From: an uncultured Roseburia sp.
Lineage (GTDB): Bacteria > Bacillota > Clostridia > Lachnospirales > Lachnospiraceae
Direction: 5' to 3'
NCBI GenBank assembly: GCA_944380515.1
Contig: CALWHT010000021.1
Span: 1-64,000 of the forward strand
DNA: 64,000 bases
Shown here: positions 41,612 through 53,493 of the stretch, one piece after another
How positions within the stretch are numbered: the first letter of the stretch is position 1
Layout: each line of letters starts with the position of its first letter
Translations under genes and position numbers: made by a program
Notes under the pieces: model-generated
The model's input: only the letters and a program-made list of their open reading frames with translations
What the model was told of the DNA's origin: nothing
The model's database searches: none

Positions 41612-43165
41612 GTGAAACAAAAGAGCAGAACTGAATATTCCGCGCTCAACACTTCGGTAGCGATCGTGGCGAGAATCATTGCGATTCTTATGGGCTTTGT
41701 GACGAGAGTGGTGTTTACACGAACCTTAAGCGAGAGCTATGTGGGGGTAAACGGACTGTTTACGGATATTTTAAATGTCCTTTCGCTGACGGAGCTTGGT
41801 GCGGGAACCGCCATTGTCTATGCGCTCTATGGGCCCATTGCAAAGGGAGACCAAAAAAGGCAGCAGGCGTTAATGCGCCTGTACCGGAATTTTTACCGCC
41901 TGACGGCGGCGTGTGTGGCAGCCGGGGGACTTTTGCTGATCCCGTTTCTGGACGTGCTGATGAAGAACCGTTCGCAGGTGGATCATCTGCTGTTGATTTA
42001 TCTGCTCTACCTCGCAAATTCGGTGCTTTCTTACCTGCTGGTGTATAAAAGGACGCTGATTGAGGCTCACCAGATGAATTATGTGGTGCTGATTTATCAG
42101 ACCGCGTTTCTGGTTATACAGGATGTCTGCCAGATCGTGATTCTGGTGACGACGCGCAATTTTATCGCGTTTCTGTTGATTTATATTGCCTGTACGTTGT
42201 TTAACAATCTGTGTATTTCCGCAAAGGCCGACCGCCTGTTTCCTTATTTGCGGGAAAAGGGAGTAAAGGAGCTGCCAGGGCCGGAGAAAAAGGAGATTTT
42301 CCGGAACATCCGGGCAATGATGATGCACAAGCTCGGCAATGTGGCGGTGAACAATACGGATAATCTTTTGATTTCCTCCTTTGTTGGGGTGGTCAGCGTC
42401 GGAATTTATTCCAATTATTATCTGCTGATTGGCTCCGTGCGTCAGGTGCTGGATCAGATTTTCCAGGGAATTACGGCGAGCGTGGGAAACCTTGGGGCCA
42501 CGGAGGATGGGGGAAGGGTAAAGCGCGTATTTGAGACGGCGTTTTTTATCGGCCAGTGGCTTTACGGGGCGGCGGCAATCTGTCTTTATGAGCTGCTAAA
42601 CCCCTTTGTGGAGCTTTCCTTCGGCAGCAATTATCTCTTTTCGAAGGAGATTGTACTGATTCTGTGTGTGAATTTTTATGTCAATGGTACGAGAAAGGCG
42701 GTATTAACCTTTCGGGATTCGATGGGGCTGTTCTGGTTTGACCGCTACAAGGCGCTGGCGGAGGCGGTGTTAAATCTGGTGCTTTCGATTGTGCTGGTGC
42801 GTCGGTTCGGCACCTTCGGCGTCTTTGCGGGGACGCTGATCAGTATGCTTTTGACCTCCGTGTGGGTGGAGCCCTATGTGCTTTACCGTCACAGGCTATA
42901 TGCCCCGCTGGCCCCGTTTTATCGGAAATATCTGTGCTTTGCGGCGGTCACGGCAGGGGCCTGGGCGGCGGCGGATGTGCTCTGCGCGCAGTTTACGGGA
43001 AGTCTGCCTGCAATGCTTATTTATCGGCTCGCTGTCTGCGCGGTGGTTCCGAATCTGATGATGCTGCTTTGTTATTTCAGGCTTCCGGAGTTTCGGGAGG
43101 TCAGACAAATGCTGTCTGATATTGTCAAAGGAAGGAGGCGCGCCGGTGAGCCGTCAGTTAAATGA
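41612..43165 (+). CDS. Wzx-type oligosaccharide flippase
   Basis: A 517-aa polytopic protein of the polysaccharide transporter family (about twelve to fourteen helices). It starts EYSALNTSVAIVARIIAILM and has FVTRVVFTRTLSESYVG, as in Gram-positive Wzx proteins. It would flip undecaprenyl-linked units. This is a second exporter beside PelG, so the cluster may make two polymers or one by a mixed route. GTG start at 41612 with AGAGGAG upstream. Confidence 0.87.
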   Translation: MKQKSRTEYSALNTSVAIVARIIAILMGFVTRVVFTRTLSESYVGVNGLFTDILNVLSLTELGAGTAIVYALYGPIAKGDQKRQQALMRLYRNFYRLTAACVAAGGLLLIPFLDVLMKNRSQVDHLLLIYLLYLANSVLSYLLVYKRTLIEAHQMNYVVLIYQTAFLVIQDVCQIVILVTTRNFIAFLLIYIACTLFNNLCISAKADRLFPYLREKGVKELPGPEKKEIFRNIRAMMMHKLGNVAVNNTDNLLISSFVGVVSVGIYSNYYLLIGSVRQVLDQIFQGITASVGNLGATEDGGRVKRVFETAFFIGQWLYGAAAICLYELLNPFVELSFGSNYLFSKEIVLILCVNFYVNGTRKAVLTFRDSMGLFWFDRYKALAEAVLNLVLSIVLVRRFGTFGVFAGTLISMLLTSVWVEPYVLYRHRLYAPLAPFYRKYLCFAAVTAGAWAAADVLCAQFTGSLPAMLIYRLAVCAVVPNLMMLLCYFRLPEFREVRQMLSDIVKGRRRAGEPSVK

Positions 43166-44411
43166 GGAAGAAACGGTGTTGTGCCGCCTGCTTTCGGCGG
43201 CGCTCCACGCAAAGCCGTGCCGTATGCAGGAGGTCAAAAATGCGGACTGGGAAAAGGTGCTCGGGCTGGCGGATGGGCACAGGGTGCTGCCGCTTTTATA
43301 TGATGTGCTTTCGGAAGCCTCGGTGCTGACTCCGGAGCAGCAGAAGCTTTTGGATCATAAGAGCCGCCGGACGGTACGCCAGAGCTATCGGCTGCTGTTT
43401 TTAAGCCGCGGCGTCATTGAACTTTTAAAGGAGAACGGAGTGGACGCCGTTCTGTTAAAGGGCAGCGGCACGGCGGGGCTTTATCCGGTGCCGGAGCTTC
43501 GAAAATCCGGTGATATTGATCTGCTCCTCTGCGGTGAGGCTAAGACAGAGCGGGCGGCGGAAATTCTGTGCGCGCACGGCTTTCGCCGGGCGGAAAAGCA
43601 GAGTGCGCACCATCATCTTGTATTGTTTTCCCCGGACGGAATCGGTGTAGAGCTGCATAAAATGCTGGCGGAGCCTTTCGACAACGGGCAAATTAACGCC
43701 CGGCTGGCGGAGCTGATTCCGGAATATTTAAGACATCTGGAAACGAAAGAGGTTATGGGGGTAAAATTTCAGCTTCCGCAGGCCCCCTGGCACGCCTTTT
43801 ATCTTCTGGTGCACATGCTCCAGCACTTTCTGCGTGCGGGCTTCGGGTTAAAGCTGCTGTGCGACTGGGTGGTTTTCTGGGAAAAGGAATATTCGAGGGA
43901 AGAGCAGCAGACCTTTCTTGAGCTTGTACAAAAAACCGGAATCCGCGGCTTTGCGGAGATGGTGACAGGCGTCTGTGTGCGTTATCTGGGACTGTCGGCG
44001 GAACGTGTGCGTTTCCTTGTGGGGGACGCGGCGGGAAAACGCAGCGGCCATTTCGGAGACGGGGACGCGCAGGAGCTGCTTTTGGATATTCTTGAGGCGG
44101 AGGAGTTCGGAAGGTCTGACGCAAAGCGCATGGTGGCGATGCGCGGCAACAGCCTCCCGGATTATCTGAGAGAGTTCCATCATCAGACCCTGCTGACCTA
44201 TCCGAGTGCGCAGAAATATAAAATCCTGCTCCCGGCGTTCTGGACGGCCGCGCTTTTGGGGTTCCTTTATCGGAATCGAAAGCTGCGGGGCGTCTCAGGC
44301 TGGGCGGTATTACGGAAAGCGGGTGTCCGCAGCAGGCTTGCGGGACGGATGCAGCTGTTCCGAAGCGGTAAAAGCGATGCGAAGAGACCGCGGGGAAGCA
44401 GACGAAAATAA
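43146..44411 (+). CDS. Nucleotidyltransferase-family protein (NTP_transf_5 type)
   Basis: A 421-aa protein with the nucleotidyltransferase motif LLKGSGTAGLYP...KSGDIDLLL (about residues 100-130), giving the Gly-Ser and Asp-x-Asp pair. The remainder is helical. Such proteins are found in Clostridia near polysaccharide clusters and near PqqD/HPr-kinase peptide loci, both of which are present here. Substrate unknown. The GTG at 43146 follows AAGGAGG by 7 bases and overlaps the flippase gene by 20 bases. Confidence 0.72.
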   Translation: MSRQLNEEETVLCRLLSAALHAKPCRMQEVKNADWEKVLGLADGHRVLPLLYDVLSEASVLTPEQQKLLDHKSRRTVRQSYRLLFLSRGVIELLKENGVDAVLLKGSGTAGLYPVPELRKSGDIDLLLCGEAKTERAAEILCAHGFRRAEKQSAHHHLVLFSPDGIGVELHKMLAEPFDNGQINARLAELIPEYLRHLETKEVMGVKFQLPQAPWHAFYLLVHMLQHFLRAGFGLKLLCDWVVFWEKEYSREEQQTFLELVQKTGIRGFAEMVTGVCVRYLGLSAERVRFLVGDAAGKRSGHFGDGDAQELLLDILEAEEFGRSDAKRMVAMRGNSLPDYLREFHHQTLLTYPSAQKYKILLPAFWTAALLGFLYRNRKLRGVSGWAVLRKAGVRSRLAGRMQLFRSGKSDAKRPRGSRRK

Positions 44412-44432
44412 AACGGAAAGGGAGGTGAACCC

Positions 44433-46877
44433 ATGGCAGAAGGGTATTGGTTTTTCGAATATGCAAAAGTGCTGGCGGCTTACGTGCTGCTGATGTTTGT
44501 CTGGCCGTCTGTCGTCTTCCGCGGCTATCTGCGGGGGAAGGGCAAGACAGTGCGCTTCTGTTTCTGTGTGACGGTACAGGTTTTGCTTGTAAATACCGTG
44601 GTGCTGGGGCTGGGTTTGCTTCATATCTTAAACCCGTTTACTGTCTGCGCGCTGTTTTACGGCGTGTTCCTCTTTTCGCTGCTCCGCGGAAAAAGGGTGA
44701 GCGCTGCGAACCGCAAGAGGTTTCGGCGTCTTCTGCGCGGAACCGAGGGAATGAAATGGTTTCTGTTTCAGGCGGGAGGGCGCATCAGGGGCGCTATACG
44801 GCGGAAATGGGCAGACTTTTGGCAGGCAAATCGAAACCATATGCCGGAATATGCGGCGCTGGCCGCCGTCATTCTTTTTGGGATGCTGTATTTTTCCTAT
44901 GGGGTGTTCCGGAATTATTCCTACGGCTCCGGCGATATGTATGTACATCATCAGTGGATTCAGGGCCTGATAGAAGGACAGATTTTTTATGACGGTATCT
45001 ATCCCGAGGCTATGCACTGTTTTGTCTACAGCCTGCATACCCTGTTCGGGATTCGTGTTTACAGCATTATGCTCTTTTTGGCGGGGATTCATGTGGCGGT
45101 GCTGTTTGCGGCGGTTTACCTGCTCTTAAAGGAGGTATTTCACTGGCGTTATACGGGAATCTTTGTCCTGACGCTGTTTTTGACAGTTGAGCTCCTGTGT
45201 GTGAATGAGATAGCCGGTATGTCGCGTCTGCAATGGACAATTCCGCAGGAGTTCGGTATGTATTCCCAATTCCTGTGCGTCCTGTTTTTGCTGCGCTATC
45301 TTAAGGGAGAGCTTCCCGGCATTGAAAAAGAGAACCGCAAAGGGGAAAAGAAGCGGGTGATTCTGGTGTGGAATGAGAATCTTCTGCTGTTTATGACATC
45401 TCTTGGCGTGTCTCTGGCGGTGCATTTTTATATCACCATTATGGCGTTTTTCCTGTGCGCTTCGTTTGCACTGTTTTCCCCGCGCAGAATTTTTTCCACG
45501 GGCTATTTCCGAGGACTTGTGCTGGCCGTCCTCTGCGGTTTTTTTATCGCGGCGGCTCCGATGGGGCTGGCGTTTGCATCCGGCATGCCGTTTCAGGGCT
45601 CCATCGGCTGGGCGTTAAATGTCATCCGCGGAACGGACGGACAGGAGGAAGCGGAAATAACGGAAGGTCAGGCGGAGAGCGGGACGCAGGGCGATATGGG
45701 AGAGGGGCAGCCGCAGGGCAGTGCCGCAGAGAGCGGGCGTTCGGAAAACACAGAAGAAGGGCAGGCTCCGGCTGCGAGCGCGGCAAACGGAGCGGAAAGC
45801 ACAGGAGAGGCCCCTGTCAAACGGCCGACGGAGCTTGTGTCCCGGGGACAGAGGTTTCTTGAAGAAAAGCTCACGGCGCTGTATGAAAACGGCTACCGCC
45901 AGCTCTACCTTGAGCGGGGGGCTGCCTGTATTATCGGCTTTACGCTGCTTGGTGCGGCGCTTTGGATCGGTTTTCGGCTTGTGCTGTTTGGTCTGGGCTT
46001 CGTCCGGCGGCTGGGAATCACCGGGGAACAGAAGAGCTGCTTTAACGGCTACCCGCCGCTGCTCTTTGCATCGGTGCTCTTTATGGTATTATACGCCGCG
46101 CCGTCGCTGGGGCTGCCGGAGCTGCTTGAGTCCGTGAGGCTCTGCACGACGGAGCAGCTGCTTATCCTCTGCGTTGCCGTGATGCCGTTTGATATGCTTT
46201 TTTCCCTTCTGTCGCTGTTTTTGGGGAAACGTGTGCTTCACGTGCTTTCTGTTGCCTGTGTCGGAGGAATTTATGCGATGACGGTGGAGCTTGGCATTTT
46301 CCACGGATATCTTTACTGCGAGCTGACACGCTATAATTCCGCCGTGATGGTGACCAATGAAATTATTGCGGGCTTTCCGGAAAACAGCTATACGGTGGTA
46401 TCGACGACCGACGAATTATATCAGGTCACGGAGTACGGGCGTCATGAGGAAATCCTGTCTTTTCTGGACGGGGTGGAGCGAAGCGTCTATACGCTTCCGA
46501 CAAAATATATTTTTGTCTATGTGGAAAAAACACCCATCGAGCGCTCCCAGAATCATTTTTTTGCGGGGCCGGACTGGCTGGCGCAGGAAAAATACCCGGA
46601 GCGATGGCCTCCGGGTTGCAGCGAGGGAGAAGATATCCATGCGTCCGAGATTTCACCGGAGGCGGCAGAGGGCGTGTTAAGCGGCATGGAGAAGCTTTCG
46701 GATGCCTATTCCGATCTGGATAACCGTACGCTTCTGCAATCGAAGCTGTATGAATGGTGTGCAACATTTGGGGAACTATATGAGAAGGAAATGAACATAT
46801 ACTATGAGGATGATAATCTTATCTGTTATATGATTACGCAGAATCCAAACAGTCTGTTTCATCTGGAGGTGCAATGA
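44433..46877 (+). CDS. Large GT-C-like membrane protein
   Basis: An 814-aa protein with about a dozen membrane helices. Between helices, at about residues 405-475, it has a low-complexity Glu/Gly/Ala/Ser-rich insert (GTQGDMGEGQPQGSAAESG and following). The C-terminal part (about 630-814) is soluble and outside. GSGDMYVHHQW near residue 170 resembles the acidic loop motif of GT-C enzymes, so it may be a lipid-linked sugar transferase or polymerase. I do not recognise a family. AGGGAGGTGA precedes the ATG, and it overlaps the next gene by 4 bases. Confidence 0.6.
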   Translation: MAEGYWFFEYAKVLAAYVLLMFVWPSVVFRGYLRGKGKTVRFCFCVTVQVLLVNTVVLGLGLLHILNPFTVCALFYGVFLFSLLRGKRVSAANRKRFRRLLRGTEGMKWFLFQAGGRIRGAIRRKWADFWQANRNHMPEYAALAAVILFGMLYFSYGVFRNYSYGSGDMYVHHQWIQGLIEGQIFYDGIYPEAMHCFVYSLHTLFGIRVYSIMLFLAGIHVAVLFAAVYLLLKEVFHWRYTGIFVLTLFLTVELLCVNEIAGMSRLQWTIPQEFGMYSQFLCVLFLLRYLKGELPGIEKENRKGEKKRVILVWNENLLLFMTSLGVSLAVHFYITIMAFFLCASFALFSPRRIFSTGYFRGLVLAVLCGFFIAAAPMGLAFASGMPFQGSIGWALNVIRGTDGQEEAEITEGQAESGTQGDMGEGQPQGSAAESGRSENTEEGQAPAASAANGAESTGEAPVKRPTELVSRGQRFLEEKLTALYENGYRQLYLERGAACIIGFTLLGAALWIGFRLVLFGLGFVRRLGITGEQKSCFNGYPPLLFASVLFMVLYAAPSLGLPELLESVRLCTTEQLLILCVAVMPFDMLFSLLSLFLGKRVLHVLSVACVGGIYAMTVELGIFHGYLYCELTRYNSAVMVTNEIIAGFPENSYTVVSTTDELYQVTEYGRHEEILSFLDGVERSVYTLPTKYIFVYVEKTPIERSQNHFFAGPDWLAQEKYPERWPPGCSEGEDIHASEISPEAAEGVLSGMEKLSDAYSDLDNRTLLQSKLYEWCATFGELYEKEMNIYYEDDNLICYMITQNPNSLFHLEVQ

Positions 46878-48301
46878 AAAGAGGTGTGAAATGGAAAGGG
46901 GGAGCGGTGATTGTTTTACTTGCCGCCGCTGCCGTTCTTGTCTGCTTTTTCCTGGGGCGGTTCCACTGGAGGGTGGAATTTTCAACGCGGCAGTTTACGG
47001 AATCCGCCAGGAGCCTGAAAAATCCGAACCGCGGCTTTTATTACATTTACCGCTTTATGATCGGGGACGAGACAAACGATTACGGGGCGCTGGTGAAAGA
47101 GCAGTTTGCCGATGATACTGACACGAGCCTTGCCCTGATTCAGATTAATTTACAGAAATACCGGAACGGGGCAATTTCCGAACAGGGGCTTGCCAATATC
47201 CGGGGGCTGTTTGAGGCGCTCTCCGGGAGCGGAAAACAGCTTCTCGTCCGTTTCCTCTATGACTGGAACGGGGAAAATGCGCTTTATGAGCCGGAGAGCA
47301 TTGATATTATTTTAGGGCATATGGCACAGGTGGAAGATATTCTGCGGGATTACAGCGCGCAGATTTTTGCGGTGCAGGGTCTCTTTATCGGAAATTGGGG
47401 CGAGATGAACGGCTCTGAATATACGGACCCGGAATCGCTTCGGCTTCTGGCAAACCGGCTCTTAGAGGTGACGGAGGAGACAACCTGGCTTTCGGTGCGT
47501 ACCCCGGCACAGTGGCGGCAGATTACGGGACTTTCCGGGAGCTTTTCAGAGGAGCTTTCCTCCCATCCGCTTGCCGGACGGCTGGGGCTGTACAACGACG
47601 GTATGCTGGGAAGCGAAAGTGATTATGGCACTTACGCCTCCGGCAGCGGCGTACTGTCGGGGGGCGACGGACCCTGGAGCCGAGAGGAGGAGCTTGCCTT
47701 TCAGGAGGAGCTTTGCAGCATAACGCCGAACGGCGGGGAGGTCATCGTGGATAATCCCTATAATGATTTGGAAAACGCCATACGGGATTTCCGGAGCATG
47801 CATGTGACGTATCTGAATCGGGATTACGATAAGGCGGTGCTCGACAAATGGGCGGTCCAGACCGTGACGACGGGAGACTGCTTTGACGGCATGGACGGTT
47901 TATCCTATATCAGCCGTCATCTCGGGTACCGTCTGGTTCTGACAGAGACCGGGTTCTCCCATGATTTCTGGCAGGACCGCGTCACGTTGCAGGTCTGCCT
48001 GAAAAATGTCGGTTTTGCTCCAATCTACCGGGACTGCAGGGCGGTATTTGTCCTGTGCGGCGCGGATGGGGAGCGGGAGCGCACTTATGAGGCACCGCAG
48101 AGCTTAACAGGCCTCTCGGGAGGAAACAATGACGAAAAGGAGCAGGAGTTATCGGCGGAGGTGTTTCTCGGAGATTTGAAGGGCGAACGTTATTCGGTTT
48201 ATTTTTATCTGGAGGATACGGCGAGCGGGGCGCATATTCAGCTTGGAAACGGGCAGGACGAGGAGGAGAACGGATACTTTCTCGGCAGCTTTACATTGTA
48301 G
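46874..48301 (+). CDS. DUF4874/DUF4832 protein, membrane-anchored extracellular form
   Basis: A 475-aa protein with an N-terminal membrane anchor (VIVLLAAAAVLVCFFLG) and the same two domains as its paralogue at 39242: NPNRGFYYIYRF, AVQGLFIGNWGEMNGSEYTD and NVGFAPIYRDCRAVF. The conserved Glu in GNWGEMNG again suggests a glycosidase-like barrel. It should act outside the cell, possibly on the exported polymer. It is the last gene of the 28750-48301 block. Confidence 0.72.
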   Translation: MKRGVKWKGGAVIVLLAAAAVLVCFFLGRFHWRVEFSTRQFTESARSLKNPNRGFYYIYRFMIGDETNDYGALVKEQFADDTDTSLALIQINLQKYRNGAISEQGLANIRGLFEALSGSGKQLLVRFLYDWNGENALYEPESIDIILGHMAQVEDILRDYSAQIFAVQGLFIGNWGEMNGSEYTDPESLRLLANRLLEVTEETTWLSVRTPAQWRQITGLSGSFSEELSSHPLAGRLGLYNDGMLGSESDYGTYASGSGVLSGGDGPWSREEELAFQEELCSITPNGGEVIVDNPYNDLENAIRDFRSMHVTYLNRDYDKAVLDKWAVQTVTTGDCFDGMDGLSYISRHLGYRLVLTETGFSHDFWQDRVTLQVCLKNVGFAPIYRDCRAVFVLCGADGERERTYEAPQSLTGLSGGNNDEKEQELSAEVFLGDLKGERYSVYFYLEDTASGAHIQLGNGQDEEENGYFLGSFTL

Positions 48302-48303
48302 GC

Positions 48304-48334
48304 CTCCGGAAGAGCCGGAGATAGCCTTCCGGAG
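48304..48334 (+). other. Perfect 9-bp hairpin after the polysaccharide block
   Basis: CTCCGGAAG and CTTCCGGAG flank a 13-base loop 3 bases after the stop codon. No U tract follows on either strand, so it may stabilise the mRNA end or be a weak terminator. Confidence 0.45.
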
Positions 48335-48370
48335 AGAAAAATTAGGTAAAATTTGGGTAATAAGTCTGCC

Positions 48371-48399
48371 TTGACACAGAAAACGGAAACATTTATACT
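48371..48399 (+). promoter_or_regulatory. Consensus sigma-A promoter of the structured leader
   Basis: TTGACA (48371-48376), 17 bases, TATACT (48394-48399). This is one of the strongest promoters in the window. Transcription would start near 48406, 15 bases before the first stem of the leader. Confidence 0.78.
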
Positions 48400-48420
48400 T
48401 AATTTGTAATAGTGATATAC

Positions 48421-48603
48421 CTTGAGTTTCTGCAAATTGCATTTCCAATGTGCCAAAAGAACATGCTGCGATAGCAGCATTGTTAAATTGCACAAAATTG
48501 CTCTTGGAAAACCTGTTTTCCAGATGCAATTTATGTGCAATGTTCACCTGCCATATTTTATGGCAGGTGCTTTTGGCACTTTAAAAAAATGCGCAAACTC
48601 AAG
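48421..48603 (+). ncRNA. Structured RNA: closing stem and four-way junction, unknown class
   Basis: Pairing found by eye. P1: CTTGAGTTT (48421-48429) with AAACTCAAG (48595-48603). P2: GTGCCAAAAG (48450-48459) with CTTTTGGCAC (48570-48579), 10 bp perfect. Inside P2 lie three hairpins almost without spacers: P3 ATGCTGC-GATA-GCAGCAT (48463-48480, extendable to 48460-48484); P4 AAATTGCA (48485-48492) with TGCAATTT (48525-48532), capped by TGGAAAA-CCTG-TTTTCCA (48505-48522); and P5 CACCTGCCATA with TATGGCAGGTG (48545-48569). A second copy of AAATTGCA at 48434-48441 could compete for the P4 3' strand, as in a switch. It precedes the 128-aa gene. It could be a leader, a free RNA or a mobile-element remnant. 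Confidence 0.7.
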
Positions 48604-48634
48604 TGATAAACATTTTGGGAAGGAGCAGACTGAC

Positions 48635-49021
48635 ATGAATCGTTATGAAAGTCCGATGTTGTTTACGAATGAGGAGCTTTCAGAGGGGGTTTATCTGGCA
48701 AGCGGGGACGCAGGAGGCTGTTATACGGCGTCGGCCACTATCCATCAGACTCCGCAGGCGGGCAGGGGAGATTACCGTATTCAGGTGAACGGCCAGCATA
48801 ATGCGGATCATACGAGAGAAGCACAGACACTGACCATATCCTTTAATCTTCCGGTGACTTACAGCAGCTCCGGCGGTACTTATGTCTCCGGCAGCGGCAC
48901 GCAGACGCTTGTTATCAATTATGGCTATCATCAGAATCCGACCGATAATATCGGTCTGGGAGATTTGGTGGTTACCGCCGACGCGGGACTTGCGGTTACG
49001 AGCGTGAGCATTACGGACTGA
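48635..49021 (+). CDS. 128-aa protein with leader-like N terminus and beta-rich body
   Basis: A 128-aa protein with no classical signal peptide. Residues 1-28 (MNRYESPMLFTNEELSEGVY and a following Ser-Gly and Gly-Gly) resemble peptide-export leaders; residues 29-128 alternate polar and hydrophobic residues, rich in Ser, Thr, Gly and Tyr, as in beta-sandwich domains. It has AAGGAG 9 bases before the ATG at 48635, its own strong promoter, a structured 5' leader and its own terminator. It is followed by an ABC exporter gene. A role as exported or modified substrate is inference; I know no characterised family. Confidence 0.65.
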   Translation: MNRYESPMLFTNEELSEGVYLASGDAGGCYTASATIHQTPQAGRGDYRIQVNGQHNADHTREAQTLTISFNLPVTYSSSGGTYVSGSGTQTLVINYGYHQNPTDNIGLGDLVVTADAGLAVTSVSITD

Positions 49022-49040
49022 TCATTTGTTTTTGGCAGGG

Positions 49041-49093
49041 GAGGGGCGGTTGTCCGGCAGCAGGAAAGCTGACGGCAGCGGCCTCTTTTTTTT
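49041..49093 (+). terminator. Terminator after the 128-aa gene
   Basis: An imperfect G/C-rich stem from GAGGGGCGG to GGCCTC is followed by eight T's (49086-49093). It should make the 128-aa transcript abundant relative to the ABC transporter mRNA. Confidence 0.75.
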
Positions 49094-49139
49094 GGGGTTA
49101 TAGGATAGCATCTTTGGTTGTGAGAAAAAGGACGGAAGT

Positions 49140-50906
49140 ATGTTTCAGACAGTGAGGCATTATATCAATCGAATCAAAGCCGGCGGCTTAAGGGAGATGT
49201 GGAGGGAAACGCTCTGGATTTACCGATATGCGCGTCTTTATTGGAAGCAGATGATTTTTTATACGGTGCTCGGATTGACGGGGACGCTTGTGACCCTTAT
49301 TTCCAGTCTGATTTCCCGGGATATGGTGGATATTATCACGGGACACCAGACGGGCCGCCTGATAGAGACCTTTTGTCTGTATATCGGTTTTTCGGTCGGA
49401 AATGTTCTGGTTTCCCAGTGCTCCAACTATTTTTCCAGTAAAATCAGTATCAGTGTAGACAGTGCGATCAAGGCCGATATTTTTGCCAGGATGCTGCAAA
49501 CGGATTTGGAAGCTCTCTGGGGTTACCATACCGGGGATCTGCTCACACGCTGGAGCTCCGATGCCTCCAATATATCCAACGGGATTTTAAACTGGATTCC
49601 GAATCTGATCATATATACGGTGCGTTTTATCAGCACGCTTGCGCTGGTCTGCTATTATGACCCGATCTTTGCGCTTTTGGCTTTGCTCGGAATGCCGGTG
49701 AGCATGCTGATGTCGCGCCGCCTGTTAAAGCGGATGAAGGGCAATAACGAGCAGAGCGCTGCAATGAGCGCAAAGATGTCCGGTTTTCATCAGGAGGCTT
49801 TTTCAAATATACAGACGATAAAGGCGTTCGATTTGATCGAGCGCTGCACCGGGCGCTTAAAGCAGCTTCAGACGGAATTTCTCGGCATGAAGATGGAATT
49901 TCAGCGGATGTCTATGGCGGCCTCCTTTCTGCTTTCCGTCGTCGGCCTTGCCGTGTCCTACAGCTGCTACGGCTTCGGTATTTACCGGGTGTGGAGCGGG
50001 GCAATTTCCTACGGCACAATGACAATGTTTTTGTCGCTCTCGGGAACATTGACGGGAACGTTGAACCAGCTGACGTCGCTGGTGCCGACCGCCGTTTCGA
50101 TGACGACCTCCGCAGGGCGTCTGATGGATATTCTGGAGATGCCGCAGGAGGATTTTTCACAGACAAAGCGCGCCGATGAATTTTTGGACGAGAACCGCGG
50201 GCGCGGCGTAAGCCTCTGTCTTTTTGGACTCTCCTATACATATCATAACGGTACGGAAGTATTTTCAGGGGCTGATTTCGTTGCGCATCCGCATGAAATC
50301 GTAGCTCTGGTAGGCCCTTCCGGGGAAGGGAAGACGACGCTGCTGCGGCTGATGCTCGCGCTGCTTGTACCGAAGGAGGGAAAAGCCTTTCTCAAGGGAG
50401 AGGACACAGGGGATATTTTTGATATCTGTCCATCTGCGCGGCGGCTTTTTTCCTATGTGCCGCAGGGAAATACGATGTTTTCGGGAACCATTGCGGAAAA
50501 TATGAGAAATGTCAAGCCCGATGCGTCGGACGATGAAATCAGAGAAGCGTTAAAGGCTGCGTGCGCATGGGAATTTGTAACCAGACTGCCGGACGGCATC
50601 TACAGCAAAATCGGCGAGCGAGGAGGCGGCTTTTCCGAGGGGCAGTCCCAGCGGCTTTCCATTGCAAGGGCGCTTTTGCGCCGTTCCCCGATTCTGCTGC
50701 TCGACGAGGCAACCTCCGCGCTCGATGTCGCGACCGAGCGCAGGGTATTGAAGAATATTATGGCGGATGACTATCCGAGAACCTGTATCGTGACGACGCA
50801 TCGGCCCACGGTGCTTACCATCTGCCAGAGAGTTTACGGCATCCGTGACAGGAAGTGCGTCATTTTGCAGGAGGACGAAATCGCCGGGCTGATTGACGAC
50901 TTCTAA
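49140..50906 (+). CDS. ABC exporter, fused permease and ATPase
   Basis: A 588-aa half-transporter. Six membrane helices span about residues 35-320. The ATPase has Walker A GPSGEGKTT (392-400), Q-loop VPQGNTMFSGT, signature FSEGQSQRLSIARAL, Walker B ILLLDEATSALD and the switch His in TTHRP. There is no N-terminal C39 protease domain, so leader removal, if any, needs another enzyme. It works as a homodimer. Its position after the 128-aa gene and beside the PqqD-kinase gene suggests peptide or protein export. Its end overlaps the convergent gene by 4 bases. Confidence 0.88.
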   Translation: MFQTVRHYINRIKAGGLREMWRETLWIYRYARLYWKQMIFYTVLGLTGTLVTLISSLISRDMVDIITGHQTGRLIETFCLYIGFSVGNVLVSQCSNYFSSKISISVDSAIKADIFARMLQTDLEALWGYHTGDLLTRWSSDASNISNGILNWIPNLIIYTVRFISTLALVCYYDPIFALLALLGMPVSMLMSRRLLKRMKGNNEQSAAMSAKMSGFHQEAFSNIQTIKAFDLIERCTGRLKQLQTEFLGMKMEFQRMSMAASFLLSVVGLAVSYSCYGFGIYRVWSGAISYGTMTMFLSLSGTLTGTLNQLTSLVPTAVSMTTSAGRLMDILEMPQEDFSQTKRADEFLDENRGRGVSLCLFGLSYTYHNGTEVFSGADFVAHPHEIVALVGPSGEGKTTLLRLMLALLVPKEGKAFLKGEDTGDIFDICPSARRLFSYVPQGNTMFSGTIAENMRNVKPDASDDEIREALKAACAWEFVTRLPDGIYSKIGERGGGFSEGQSQRLSIARALLRRSPILLLDEATSALDVATERRVLKNIMADDYPRTCIVTTHRPTVLTICQRVYGIRDRKCVILQEDEIAGLIDDF

Positions 50907-52063
50907 AGTCGGTCGATGGCGCGCCTGATGGTTTCCGCCGCTTCAGGCTGTGCGGTGCAGTACAGGCGGAAGATGGGGACTAAGTCCGTAAGGCGCTCGG
51001 AAAAACGGATATTTTTGGCAAGCAGTTCTTCGTTCCACGAGGGAGAAATCAGCCGCTGCATCAGAAGGAGTGCTTTCTCATCCGCCGCAGGAATTGCGGC
51101 GCGGTTTTCGGGCGCCTGCTTTAAAAAGACGATGCCGCCGAGCGGATATGTTTCTGCGGTGTGGATGCCGGAGGTGCCGCACCAGGGAAGTCCGTAGACC
51201 AGCGGGGCGGAATCGGTTCCGATACCGAGCAGATTTAAGTCTCCGTTTAAGTGCTGGGTGTGGTAGCAGTCATGCCAGAGTGCCGCGTGTGTGGATTTTC
51301 CTGTTCCGGAAGCGCCGGAAAACAGCCATGCCCTGCCGGCATAGAGAATGGAAGCGGAGTGGAGGACATAAAGCTCCCGGTTCTGCGCCAGAATCAGAAA
51401 GGCAAAGCGCAGGGCGTGAAATATATCGGAAAAATCGGATGGGGAATATTCCGGTTTGACAAAAAGGACGGCGGCGGAGCCGTCCTTTGTCACGTTCATT
51501 TCCCGGACGCCGCAGGGCTTAGAATAGAGAAAGTGATATTCGCCGCCGGCATCGCAGATGATAAGCTCGTCGGTGCGAATCAGAATCCGGCCGTTTTTGC
51601 GCGCTGCGGGAGAGCCGGTGTAAACCGTAATATGCTGGTCCGTGCGTTGTTCGGAAGAATTGTCAGGCGCGCAGGAAAAATCCGAAAAAAATTCGAAAAA
51701 AACCTCACTCGGCCCATCGAAGGAAAAGACCAGCGGTCCGATTTTCCAGTAAAAAAGCTGCTGATTTTCAGGCGGAACACATTCCCGGGAAGATGCGAGC
51801 ATTCCCGTGCGGGAGAGAGCGTTCAGCCAGCAGTCCAAATCCTTTTTCAGAGCCGGAAGGTCGGATGGGTCTGCGTCATATTCCTTTGCCAGCAGAGCAA
51901 GAAGCTCATCCTGCGTGGCGCCCGCCGTAAGGGCGTCCCACAGGAGGCTGCCGGAGGCGTTTAAACGGATGGAAGGCGCATGATCCGCAATCTGCTGACC
52001 GTAGGGAAGCAGATAGGGTACGCCCGCGATAGTGGTCTTTACATAGCCGTCCGTCGGTTGCAT
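50903..52063 (-). CDS. PqqD domain fused to HPr-kinase-like domain
   Basis: A 386-aa protein. Residues about 1-95 are PqqD-like (SIRLNASGSLLWDALTAGAT), and about 235-386 are an HPr-kinase/phosphorylase-like domain with P-loop FSGASGTGKST near residue 250. The middle region is not recognised. HPr-kinase homologues of this sort phosphorylate or bind peptide precursors in some RiPP systems (lasso peptides). The ATG at 52063 follows AAGGAG by 7 bases and is preferred over ATG 52081. It shares its terminal bases with the convergent ABC exporter gene. Confidence 0.8.
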   Translation of the reverse strand: MQPTDGYVKTTIAGVPYLLPYGQQIADHAPSIRLNASGSLLWDALTAGATQDELLALLAKEYDADPSDLPALKKDLDCWLNALSRTGMLASSRECVPPENQQLFYWKIGPLVFSFDGPSEVFFEFFSDFSCAPDNSSEQRTDQHITVYTGSPAARKNGRILIRTDELIICDAGGEYHFLYSKPCGVREMNVTKDGSAAVLFVKPEYSPSDFSDIFHALRFAFLILAQNRELYVLHSASILYAGRAWLFSGASGTGKSTHAALWHDCYHTQHLNGDLNLLGIGTDSAPLVYGLPWCGTSGIHTAETYPLGGIVFLKQAPENRAAIPAADEKALLLMQRLISPSWNEELLAKNIRFSERLTDLVPIFRLYCTAQPEAAETIRRAIDRL

Positions 52064-52089
52064 GGTTTTCTCCTTTTTCATGAGCGCAT

Positions 52090-52962
52090 TTATTCCTTTT
52101 CCACGCTGCTGTTGAATTTATCCAGCAGCAATGCGATGACGATACCGCAGACAATGCAGACAAGGTTGATCACGCACTGCGACAGGGAAGCGGTAAAGCT
52201 GGAAAACGGGATGATCATGACGGTTGCCGCAATGACAATTCCGATAATTCCGTGAAAAGCAATGGAATAAAAGTGATCGAATAAGGCGTTTACGGCCTTG
52301 GCAAGGCAGATAATCGTCACAAGTCCTCCGATTCCGCCCGGAATGAGCACGGAAAAATCCAGATGTCCGATGCCGTCCACAAAGGGCGTATAAAGTCCGA
52401 GCGGCATCAGCAGGGTGGAAAAGCTCATGCCCGGGGCAATGATGCTGAGCGCGAGGCAGAAGCCGCAGAATAAATACCAGAAAAAGTTAGGCGTTATGGT
52501 AACGGAAGCCATGTTTAAGCCGCCCAGCAGCAGGAAAATAAAAATCATGCACGCAAACAGGGAGATATAAGAGCCGCGGCTGGTACCCTGTTCTCTCGCC
52601 TCGCGGAACAGAGAGGGCAGCATACCGGTAATCAGGCCGATAAACAGGCAGACGGAAGGATCCGGGTATTTTTCCAGGAAAAATGCCAAAAGATTGGCAA
52701 TTCCGAGAAATCCGATGATTCCGCCTAAGAATACGGGAATCAGCTTTGGAACATGTGTTTTAAAATTGGCAATGGGATTGGAGAGCAGCTCCATGATGGG
52801 CTTATATACTCCGAAAATTACGCCGAGAACGCCTCCGGAAATGCCGGGAAGCACTGCGCCGAGCCCAATCAGCGCTCCCTGAAGGACGCGAATGAGAAAT
52901 TTCAGCGGGCGAAACTGTGTTGTTTTGGTTGATTTGCTAGAATTCATGTTCATAGTCTCCAT
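52090..52962 (-). CDS. DUF368 membrane protein (undecaprenyl-phosphate translocase family)
   Basis: A 290-aa polytopic protein with the DUF368 signature GALIGLGAVLPGISGGVLGV near the N terminus and the related second copy ALSIIAPGMSFSTLL. DUF368 (PopT) proteins return undecaprenyl phosphate to the inner leaflet, which would serve wall and capsule synthesis. It lies upstream of the PqqD-kinase gene on the same strand. Start uncertain: ATG 52962 or ATG 52947, the latter with GGAG nearby. A TATAAT on the minus strand (52991-52986) may be its -10. Confidence 0.85.
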   Translation of the reverse strand: METMNMNSSKSTKTTQFRPLKFLIRVLQGALIGLGAVLPGISGGVLGVIFGVYKPIMELLSNPIANFKTHVPKLIPVFLGGIIGFLGIANLLAFFLEKYPDPSVCLFIGLITGMLPSLFREAREQGTSRGSYISLFACMIFIFLLLGGLNMASVTITPNFFWYLFCGFCLALSIIAPGMSFSTLLMPLGLYTPFVDGIGHLDFSVLIPGGIGGLVTIICLAKAVNALFDHFYSIAFHGIIGIVIAATVMIIPFSSFTASLSQCVINLVCIVCGIVIALLLDKFNSSVEKE

Positions 52963-53040
52963 TCATTTTACTTTTTACGGTGTTCATTATAGCATTAGAC
53001 AGGTGAAAATGCTACAATGGTTTCTATGGAGTGTGAAAAA

Positions 53041-53493
53041 ATGGACGGAAAGAAGGTAAATATAGAGCTGCTGCTGCGGGAGGGGAAAACGGTGCAGATT
53101 TTTCCGCAGGGCTTCAGTATGTACCCGATGCTTGTGCCGGGACGTGACGAGGCGGTGATCGCTGCTGCGGATACGGAAAAGCTGCATCGCGGAGACGTGG
53201 CGCTTTACCGCAGAAAATCAGGACTTTTGGTGCTGCACCGCATCTGGAAAAAGAAAAAAGACGGTTTTTATATGGTAGGGGACCATCAGACGCAGATTGA
53301 GGGACCGATAGAGCCGGAGCAGTTTGTCGGCGTTCTCGTGGCGTTTGTGCGGAACGGCCGTCGGATAGATGTGAAAAATCCGATGTACCGTGCTGCCGCA
53401 GGATTGTGGCTTTTACTCCGCCCCATGCGCCGTGCGTTTATGGCTGCGGGCGCGGCAGTAAAAAAGGGAATGAAAATACACGGAGCCGGTTGA
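53041..53493 (+). CDS. S24/S26-type peptidase-like protein with Ser-His pair
   Basis: A 150-aa protein of the signal-peptidase/LexA fold. The nucleophile Ser26 is in GFSMYPML and the second catalytic position is His66 in LVLHRI, as in SipW/ER-type signal peptidases rather than the Lys of the bacterial type. GDHQTQIEGPI and FVGVLVAF complete the family pattern. There is no N-terminal anchor; only a weak hydrophobic stretch near residue 120. It could remove leaders from the neighbouring cargo. The ATG at 53041 has GGAGTG 9 bases upstream; ATG 53017 is an alternative. Confidence 0.75.
   Translation: MDGKKVNIELLLREGKTVQIFPQGFSMYPMLVPGRDEAVIAAADTEKLHRGDVALYRRKSGLLVLHRIWKKKKDGFYMVGDHQTQIEGPIEPEQFVGVLVAFVRNGRRIDVKNPMYRAAAGLWLLLRPMRRAFMAAGAAVKKGMKIHGAG

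Follow-up and report, generated by a model that had tools for sequence, protein, structure and literature searches.

MITEs such as Correia, ERIC and QMITE2 are short, mostly intergenic elements with terminal inverted repeats (TIRs), target duplications and a stable fold in the transcript, and once inserted they can alter the transcripts that carry them, according to a review (PMC10969869). The pneumococcal BOX, RUP and SPRITE repeats are dispersed, have extensive secondary structure and are thought to be mobile, as described in PMC3049150. The ISPepr1 subgroup of the IS4 family of insertion sequences is characterised by ends of the form YT-AA-YTT---A and by target duplications of 7-8 bp (PMC2266710).

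Here we describe a 183-bp element in an uncultured Roseburia sp., found in a window of 64,000 nucleotides of contig CALWHT010000021.1, the whole stretch of DNA that was analysed. It shares with Correia, ERIC and QMITE2 the short length, the mostly intergenic position, the TIRs with target duplications and the stable fold, and it may likewise alter the transcripts that carry it. It appears to differ from MITEs in general, as PMC10969869 presents them, in that its interior is not derived from the interior of its partner IS and in that its branched three-hairpin core carries compensatory changes across three genera. The likeness to BOX, RUP and SPRITE concerns dispersal, structure and presumed mobility; in the main text of PMC3049150, 'covari' and 'compensatory' were counted zero times. 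No published description of the element was found by title and start of abstract in a partial coverage of the literature. Preservation of a branched hairpin core in three genera of gut bacteria most likely makes it unusual among MITEs.

A compact fold of 183 bases

An earlier note on this DNA had described a structured RNA at 48371-48640, behind a consensus promoter. The compact fold is confirmed by calculation: folded as RNA, 48411-48615 reaches -85.8 kcal/mol (z -9.4) and, folded as DNA, the element 48421-48603 reaches -58.2 (z -10.8), with 0 of 200 shuffles equally good in each case. The closing stem (formed from CTTGAGTTT/AAACTCAAG), the 10-bp stem and the three hairpins can be read in the sequence as claimed. 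The span has to be corrected, since the element occupies exactly 183 bases, from C48421 to G48603 (Table 1). A similar branched fold forms on both strands. In an alignment read by eye the genera resemble each other most at the base of hairpin H2 (TGCACA/TGTGCA) and at its apex (GGAAAAC..GTTTTCC). The duplicate of a stem strand, AAATTGCA at 48434-48441, which had been taken to allow an alternative pairing, does exist but belongs to the terminal inverted repeat, and the AGTGATA direct repeat at 48411 and 48602 is present and overlaps the 8-bp target duplications.

Table 1. Features of the element and its surroundings, in window coordinates. Hairpin coordinates are those of the consensus structure of the aligned copies, placed on the window.
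Feature	Position	Strand	Remark
Sigma-70-like promoter TTGACA-17-TATACT	48371..48399	+	Outside the element; 11/12 consensus; presumed in use
Left target-site duplication TGATATAC	48413..48420		7/8 identical to 48604-48611
Whole miniature transposon, 183 bp	48421..48603	+	Strand is the orientation used for alignments
Left terminal inverted repeat CTTGAGTTTCTGCAAATTGCA	48421..48441	+	90% identical to the left end of the IS over 21 bases
10-bp stem P1, 5' strand GTGCCAAAAG	48450..48459	+	Consensus structure
Hairpin H1	48464..48479	+	Consensus structure
Long hairpin H2	48487..48541	+	Consensus structure
Hairpin H3	48545..48569	+	Double changes at 11/11 pairs in the 28-element set
Stem P1, 3' strand CTTTTGGCAC	48570..48579	+	Consensus structure
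Right terminal inverted repeat TGCGCAAACTCAAG	48590..48603	+	13/14 identical to the right end of the IS
Right target-site duplication TGATAAAC	48604..48611		Pairs with the left duplication, 48413-48420
Downstream 128-aa gene	48635..49021	+	Element in front most probably gained by insertion

The view that the fold belongs to no known class also stands, as no Rfam family reached its gathering score in the window. When 48350-48660 was searched with E up to 10, only 16 sub-threshold matches were obtained, all with E 0.021 or worse; the best was AfaR (E 0.021; 24.5 bits, where the gathering score is 100), and SAM-II appeared at E 8.7. Eight relative loci yielded nothing except a tRNA at gathering score.

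Dispersed copies with common ends and target duplications

A 270-bp query gave at least 24 matches in its own genome (G000) at about 16 distinct places, the remaining matches being palindromic reverse matches or second pieces. At least eight are long copies, the window included, which share 84-100% identity and are accompanied by shorter pieces; the length of long copies in Roseburia is 183-188 bp, and one of the eight (C48) is without its left end. When aligned, the long copies have the common ends CTTGAGTTTCC...GGAAACTCAAG (inverted), outside which the flanks differ. Copy and genome counts given here and below are lower bounds, because the genome searches scored a limited number of candidates under strict filters. 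The earlier note had left a mobile-element origin open, naming many dispersed identical copies as an outcome that would refute its RNA reading; this outcome was obtained, with copies that are similar, not identical, sit at unrelated sites and have a partner transposase.

Direct repeats of 8-9 bp flank 8 of 14 sites (7 of 13 elements, plus the IS), a count reached in 0 of 20000 permutations. The sites comprised 12 own-genome elements, one of genome G006 and the IS, with element ends set by eye beforehand; at the other six no clear duplication was seen, and one passing site (C3b) is AT-rich. Allowing at most one mismatch, the genome contains the end motif TTGAGTTTCCGCAAA 12 times; by our own reading 11 of these occurrences belong to elements or IS ends, that at C39 being probably coding. 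With up to two mismatches allowed the number rises to 28, and the reversed pattern gives 11. In a rough scan 21 of 22 copies lay outside ORFs, in both orientations, and most were no further than about 150 bp from an adjacent ORF. The element contains no transposase gene; the ORF that crosses the window copy is a mechanical one.

At the site C37b the element is absent from G006, and the flanks do not reconstruct an empty site perfectly; this presence/absence bears on transposition indirectly. A clean empty site at C11 was considered and rejected, as G006 keeps a TIR-like remnant there. A phage or plasmid origin was also rejected, blastn at E up to 0.001 having found no match to the element in phage and plasmid collections. 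As a separate observation, MITE ends at C51 (L029, from C51:31360 on) and at C48 (left flank of the copy in L021) contain or adjoin a different hairpin repeat (ATAAGCTG / CAGCTTAT), apparently a nested insertion.

An IS4-type partner

The same genome holds an IS of 1574 bp (L022:992-2565) that has the same ends as the element, is flanked on both sides by the perfect 9-bp duplication agtgtgaaa and encodes a 417-aa DDE transposase (Pfam DDE_Tnp_1, 50 bits against a cut-off of 23). The YREK motif Y(2)R(3)E(6)K is present (YFSRWRIEEYFRSKK, from residue 304), and D102/103, D192 and E311 give the spacing D(60-110)D(100-150)E, the first D being our own choice. Because the NCBIfam IS4 models stay below their curated cut-offs (best 49.3 bits against 115), we regard the transposase as IS4-type but divergent. 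It is like the IS4 family, as PMC2266710 describes it, in motif and spacing, and the IS is like it in its 5'-CT ends and in a target duplication of about one helix turn; the difference lies in the sub-threshold model scores. The length falls in the ISPepr1 size range given there, whereas the ends of IS and element fit the subgroup consensus only in part, positions 4 and 13 differing in our own reading, and the duplications measure 8-10 bp instead of 7-8 bp. Judged by these features the partner IS is IS4-type; its size and its 5'-CT ends bring it closest to ISPepr1, but we do not place it in that subgroup.

At E 0.001 or better, IS and element are alike only at their ends; in the interior, one stretch of 25 bases in copy C37c matches the IS at E 0.01. 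Derivation of the interior from the IS by internal deletion was rejected on the grounds that the ends alone match. Only one intact transposase is present in the assembled genome; more IS ends are located at the contig edges C49 (L023) and C15 (L024), which suggests that further IS copies may have broken the assembly there.

Relatives in other genomes

A DNA search of the genus gave matches in at least 4 of 60 genomes (G000, G006, G002 and, weakly, G059), a search with model R1 in at least 4 of 62 (G000, G006, G002 and, weakly, G032) and a family-wide search in at least 7 of 299, each a different genus and two of them weak. A pattern scan of genome contigs returned five stretches in two MAGs, a Roseburia MAG and a Clostridiales MAG. 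In a second genus (G237) at least 39 elements were examined, 34 of them with two readable ends; 29 of the 34 are 193-198 bp long. Target duplications flank 30 of the 34, compared with a permutation mean of 2.4 and maximum of 10, the five copies without two readable ends being left out of this test. The G237 transposase is 72% identical to that of the own genome over 417 aa, and its IS, of 1572 bp, has the same ends and flanks, GATTGTCCTT/GATTGTACTT, that agree at 9 of 10 bases.

Several genomes count against the simplest picture of an element travelling with its IS. Copies are present in G006 (84% complete) and G002 (82% complete), where no transposase match was found. Six of 62 genus genomes have transposase relatives or pieces, and G000 alone among the six also shows strong element matches; 5 of the 61 other genus genomes have them without a strong element match. 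G117 (99% complete) contains the same core with no transposase detected and, among five copies read, similar ends at L146 only, so that the core may not always travel with the IS.

Two arrangements in G237 are recorded as side observations: at L138 two MITE copies (1501-1633 and 1760-1870) adjoin at one locus, and at L129 another TIR follows a copy. In G349, of another genus, several loci are quasi-palindromes, among them L131, L137 and L139 with a self inverted repeat of about 420-460 bp (71-74% identity), and a fourth (L142) is about 170 bp long; their tips resemble the three-hairpin core, and their outer stems differ between copies and stay self-complementary.

Probable insertion upstream of the 128-aa gene

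Homologues of the 128-aa gene are found in G035 (82% identical), G050 (70%) and G052 (67%), and none of these three genomes has an element match anywhere. In G050 and G052 a promoter-like site and a short leader can be read upstream; in G052 a second, weaker 128-aa-like match adjoins the first. G006 has a homologue that is 97% identical, and there the same two junctions as in the window enclose an element copy (L059/L045, G006:C115; orthologous to 48421-48603). The interior of this copy matches the window better when inverted (94% and 86% identity on the minus strand), and its central hairpin is deleted; this may reflect inversion in place or another insertion into the same target. Given its absence from three genomes with the gene and its inverted, core-deleted state in G006, the element is not a conserved leader, and the constant position upstream of the same gene that the earlier note expected of one was not found. 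The promoter-like site TTGACA-17-TATACT is present; as a promoter it is no more than plausible, because the shuffled region yields 1.0 such site on average. The site probably serves the 128-aa gene.

We consider it very probable that the window fold is a MITE belonging to an IS4-type element and that it was inserted into a leader region. It is classed as a MITE because of its dispersed copies, inverted ends, target duplications and a partner IS with the same ends; these ends, duplications and copy numbers, the partner IS and the conserved fold are all read from sequence. According to this scheme the element would have inserted just downstream of the promoter, in front of the 128-aa gene, with duplication of about 8 bp of target. 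Having entered between promoter and gene, it would have become part of the leader by accident. Mobilisation would be in trans, by the IS transposase. The element would be transcribed with the gene and might affect the transcript passively, by weak attenuation, RNase III cleavage or stabilisation.

Around the 128-aa gene, window positions 43122-53493 may hold a peptide-modification/export cluster, with an NTP_transf_5 nucleotidyltransferase, a DUF4874/DUF4832 protein, an ABC exporter and a PqqD-domain protein. The 128-aa protein itself matches no family and has a conserved N-terminus, EGVYLASG or EGVYMASG.

Shortened copies

Thirteen shortened copies in G000, G006 and G002 have 12 distinct deletion junctions, as placed by alignment and uncertain by a few bases; the single shared junction is that of C61 and C64, which are orthologous sites, and C8 has also lost its left end. 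At four sites orthologous by their flanks (the window, C30/C55, C16/C31 and C8/C12) the deletions of G000 and G006 differ. From the distinct junctions and from these orthologous sites the deletions appear to arise in place, and the idea that the short forms are a separate, multiplying subfamily was rejected on the same junctions. Core-less copies give no sign of spread, which suggests that the core may help mobility; lack of time could account for this too.

Covariation of the core

The earlier note had proposed to look for compensatory changes in homologues, and they are present. In a MAFFT alignment of 14 copies, 95.2% of cells pair and double changes occur at 10 of 50 pairs, against a shuffle mean of 3.2 (0 of 500 shuffles reaching the count) and 1-3 for slid structures. 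In 28 elements from three genera they occur at 35 of 50 pairs, where shuffles average 21.8 and reach 28 at most and slid structures give 9-18; the paired fraction of cells is 94.6%, compared with at most 78.5% in shuffles and 38-45% in slid structures. Nine representatives that are 44-80% identical keep 95.7% of cells paired. In G237 alone (31 rows) the signal is weaker, with double changes at 10 pairs where shuffles average 5.7 and reach 9 at most. The 28-element count, like that for G237 and that for 50 elements below, uses alignments fitted to model R1, because MAFFT set H3 out of register in the three-genus alignment; such fitted alignments lean towards the structure, and the 14-copy count, made with MAFFT, stands beside them. 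The 28-element set keeps one orientation of each element, 27 opposite-strand matches and one partial having been dropped from 56 matches; the 50-element set derives from 106 matches, less the opposite-strand matches and four partial elements. As judged from these alignments, the three-hairpin core covaries across three genera, and its branched form belongs to the element family as a whole.

Conserved unpaired bases of the kind expected at a ligand site were sought in 11 representatives. Invariance was seen in 2 of 32 unpaired columns and in 27 of the 100 paired columns, a pattern unlike that of a ligand-binding aptamer.

What maintains the core

Selection on the RNA of one strand should favour G-U over A-C mismatches. 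Among 2469 cells of the 50 elements, 64 G-T and 66 A-C mismatches were counted, with 15 rows leaning to each and 20 ties. This equality suggests maintenance at the DNA level or RNA selection in both orientations. We think that the core is kept at the DNA level, either because it is needed for efficient transposition or because it is repaired as a palindrome during replication, since neither strand is favoured in the keeping of the pairs and core-deleted copies show no sign of multiplication.

Template switching in replication turns imperfect palindromes into perfect ones, which leads to double changes. It is possible, though less likely than not, that mutation of this kind keeps the core paired by itself and that the pairing has no function. 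Such an origin would fit the strand symmetry of the mismatches, the frequency of internal deletions (typical of palindromes) and the larger quasi-palindromes of G349, in which the same tip is combined with outer stems that differ between copies. It accounts less well for the persistence of the three-hairpin architecture and of the motifs CAAAAG, TGCACA and GGAAA..TTTCC among representatives only 44-80% identical, and for the retention of full length in 29 of the 34 two-ended G237 copies.

That the branched, four-way-junction core is a working part of the DNA is a more tentative proposal, about which we are doubtful. If it were true, the core would form by extrusion where the DNA is single-stranded or supercoiled, and transposition would involve its recognition or require it; full-core copies would multiply, core-deleted ones would be dead ends, and the shape would outlive the sequence across genera.

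It is unlikely that the RNA of the core acts for the element or its host in either orientation, as an RNase III substrate, a bidirectional attenuator or an RNA stabiliser. The strong covariation (10/50 and 35/50 pairs), the similar branched shape of both strands, the placement of copies outside but mostly near ORFs in the rough scan and a minus-strand terminator-like site (48463-48480; 0.3 expected from shuffles) speak for such a role, and precedents have been reported or proposed for Correia, ERIC and BOX in PMC10969869 and PMC3049150. On the other hand, few unpaired bases are conserved, copy orientation varies, and G-T is not in excess over A-C, an uncalibrated comparison in which selection on both strands would also give equality. 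Least probable by far is the switch for the 128-aa gene that the earlier note thought plausible: the element does lie between a promoter-like site and that gene and folds strongly, but it recurs at many unrelated loci, its position is not conserved, its unpaired columns are nearly all variable and Rfam offers only sub-threshold matches.

With the window fold read as a MITE, a striking 'orphan riboswitch' is explained as a transposon. The case also warns against taking strong covariation by itself as proof of regulatory RNA where the homologues compared are mobile copies. Checking whether G-T and A-C mismatches are equally frequent costs little and, given calibration, could tell structure kept at the DNA level apart from structure kept at the RNA level in other repeats. 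Were the core required for movement, these elements would have a structural requirement inside the transposon, beyond its ends.
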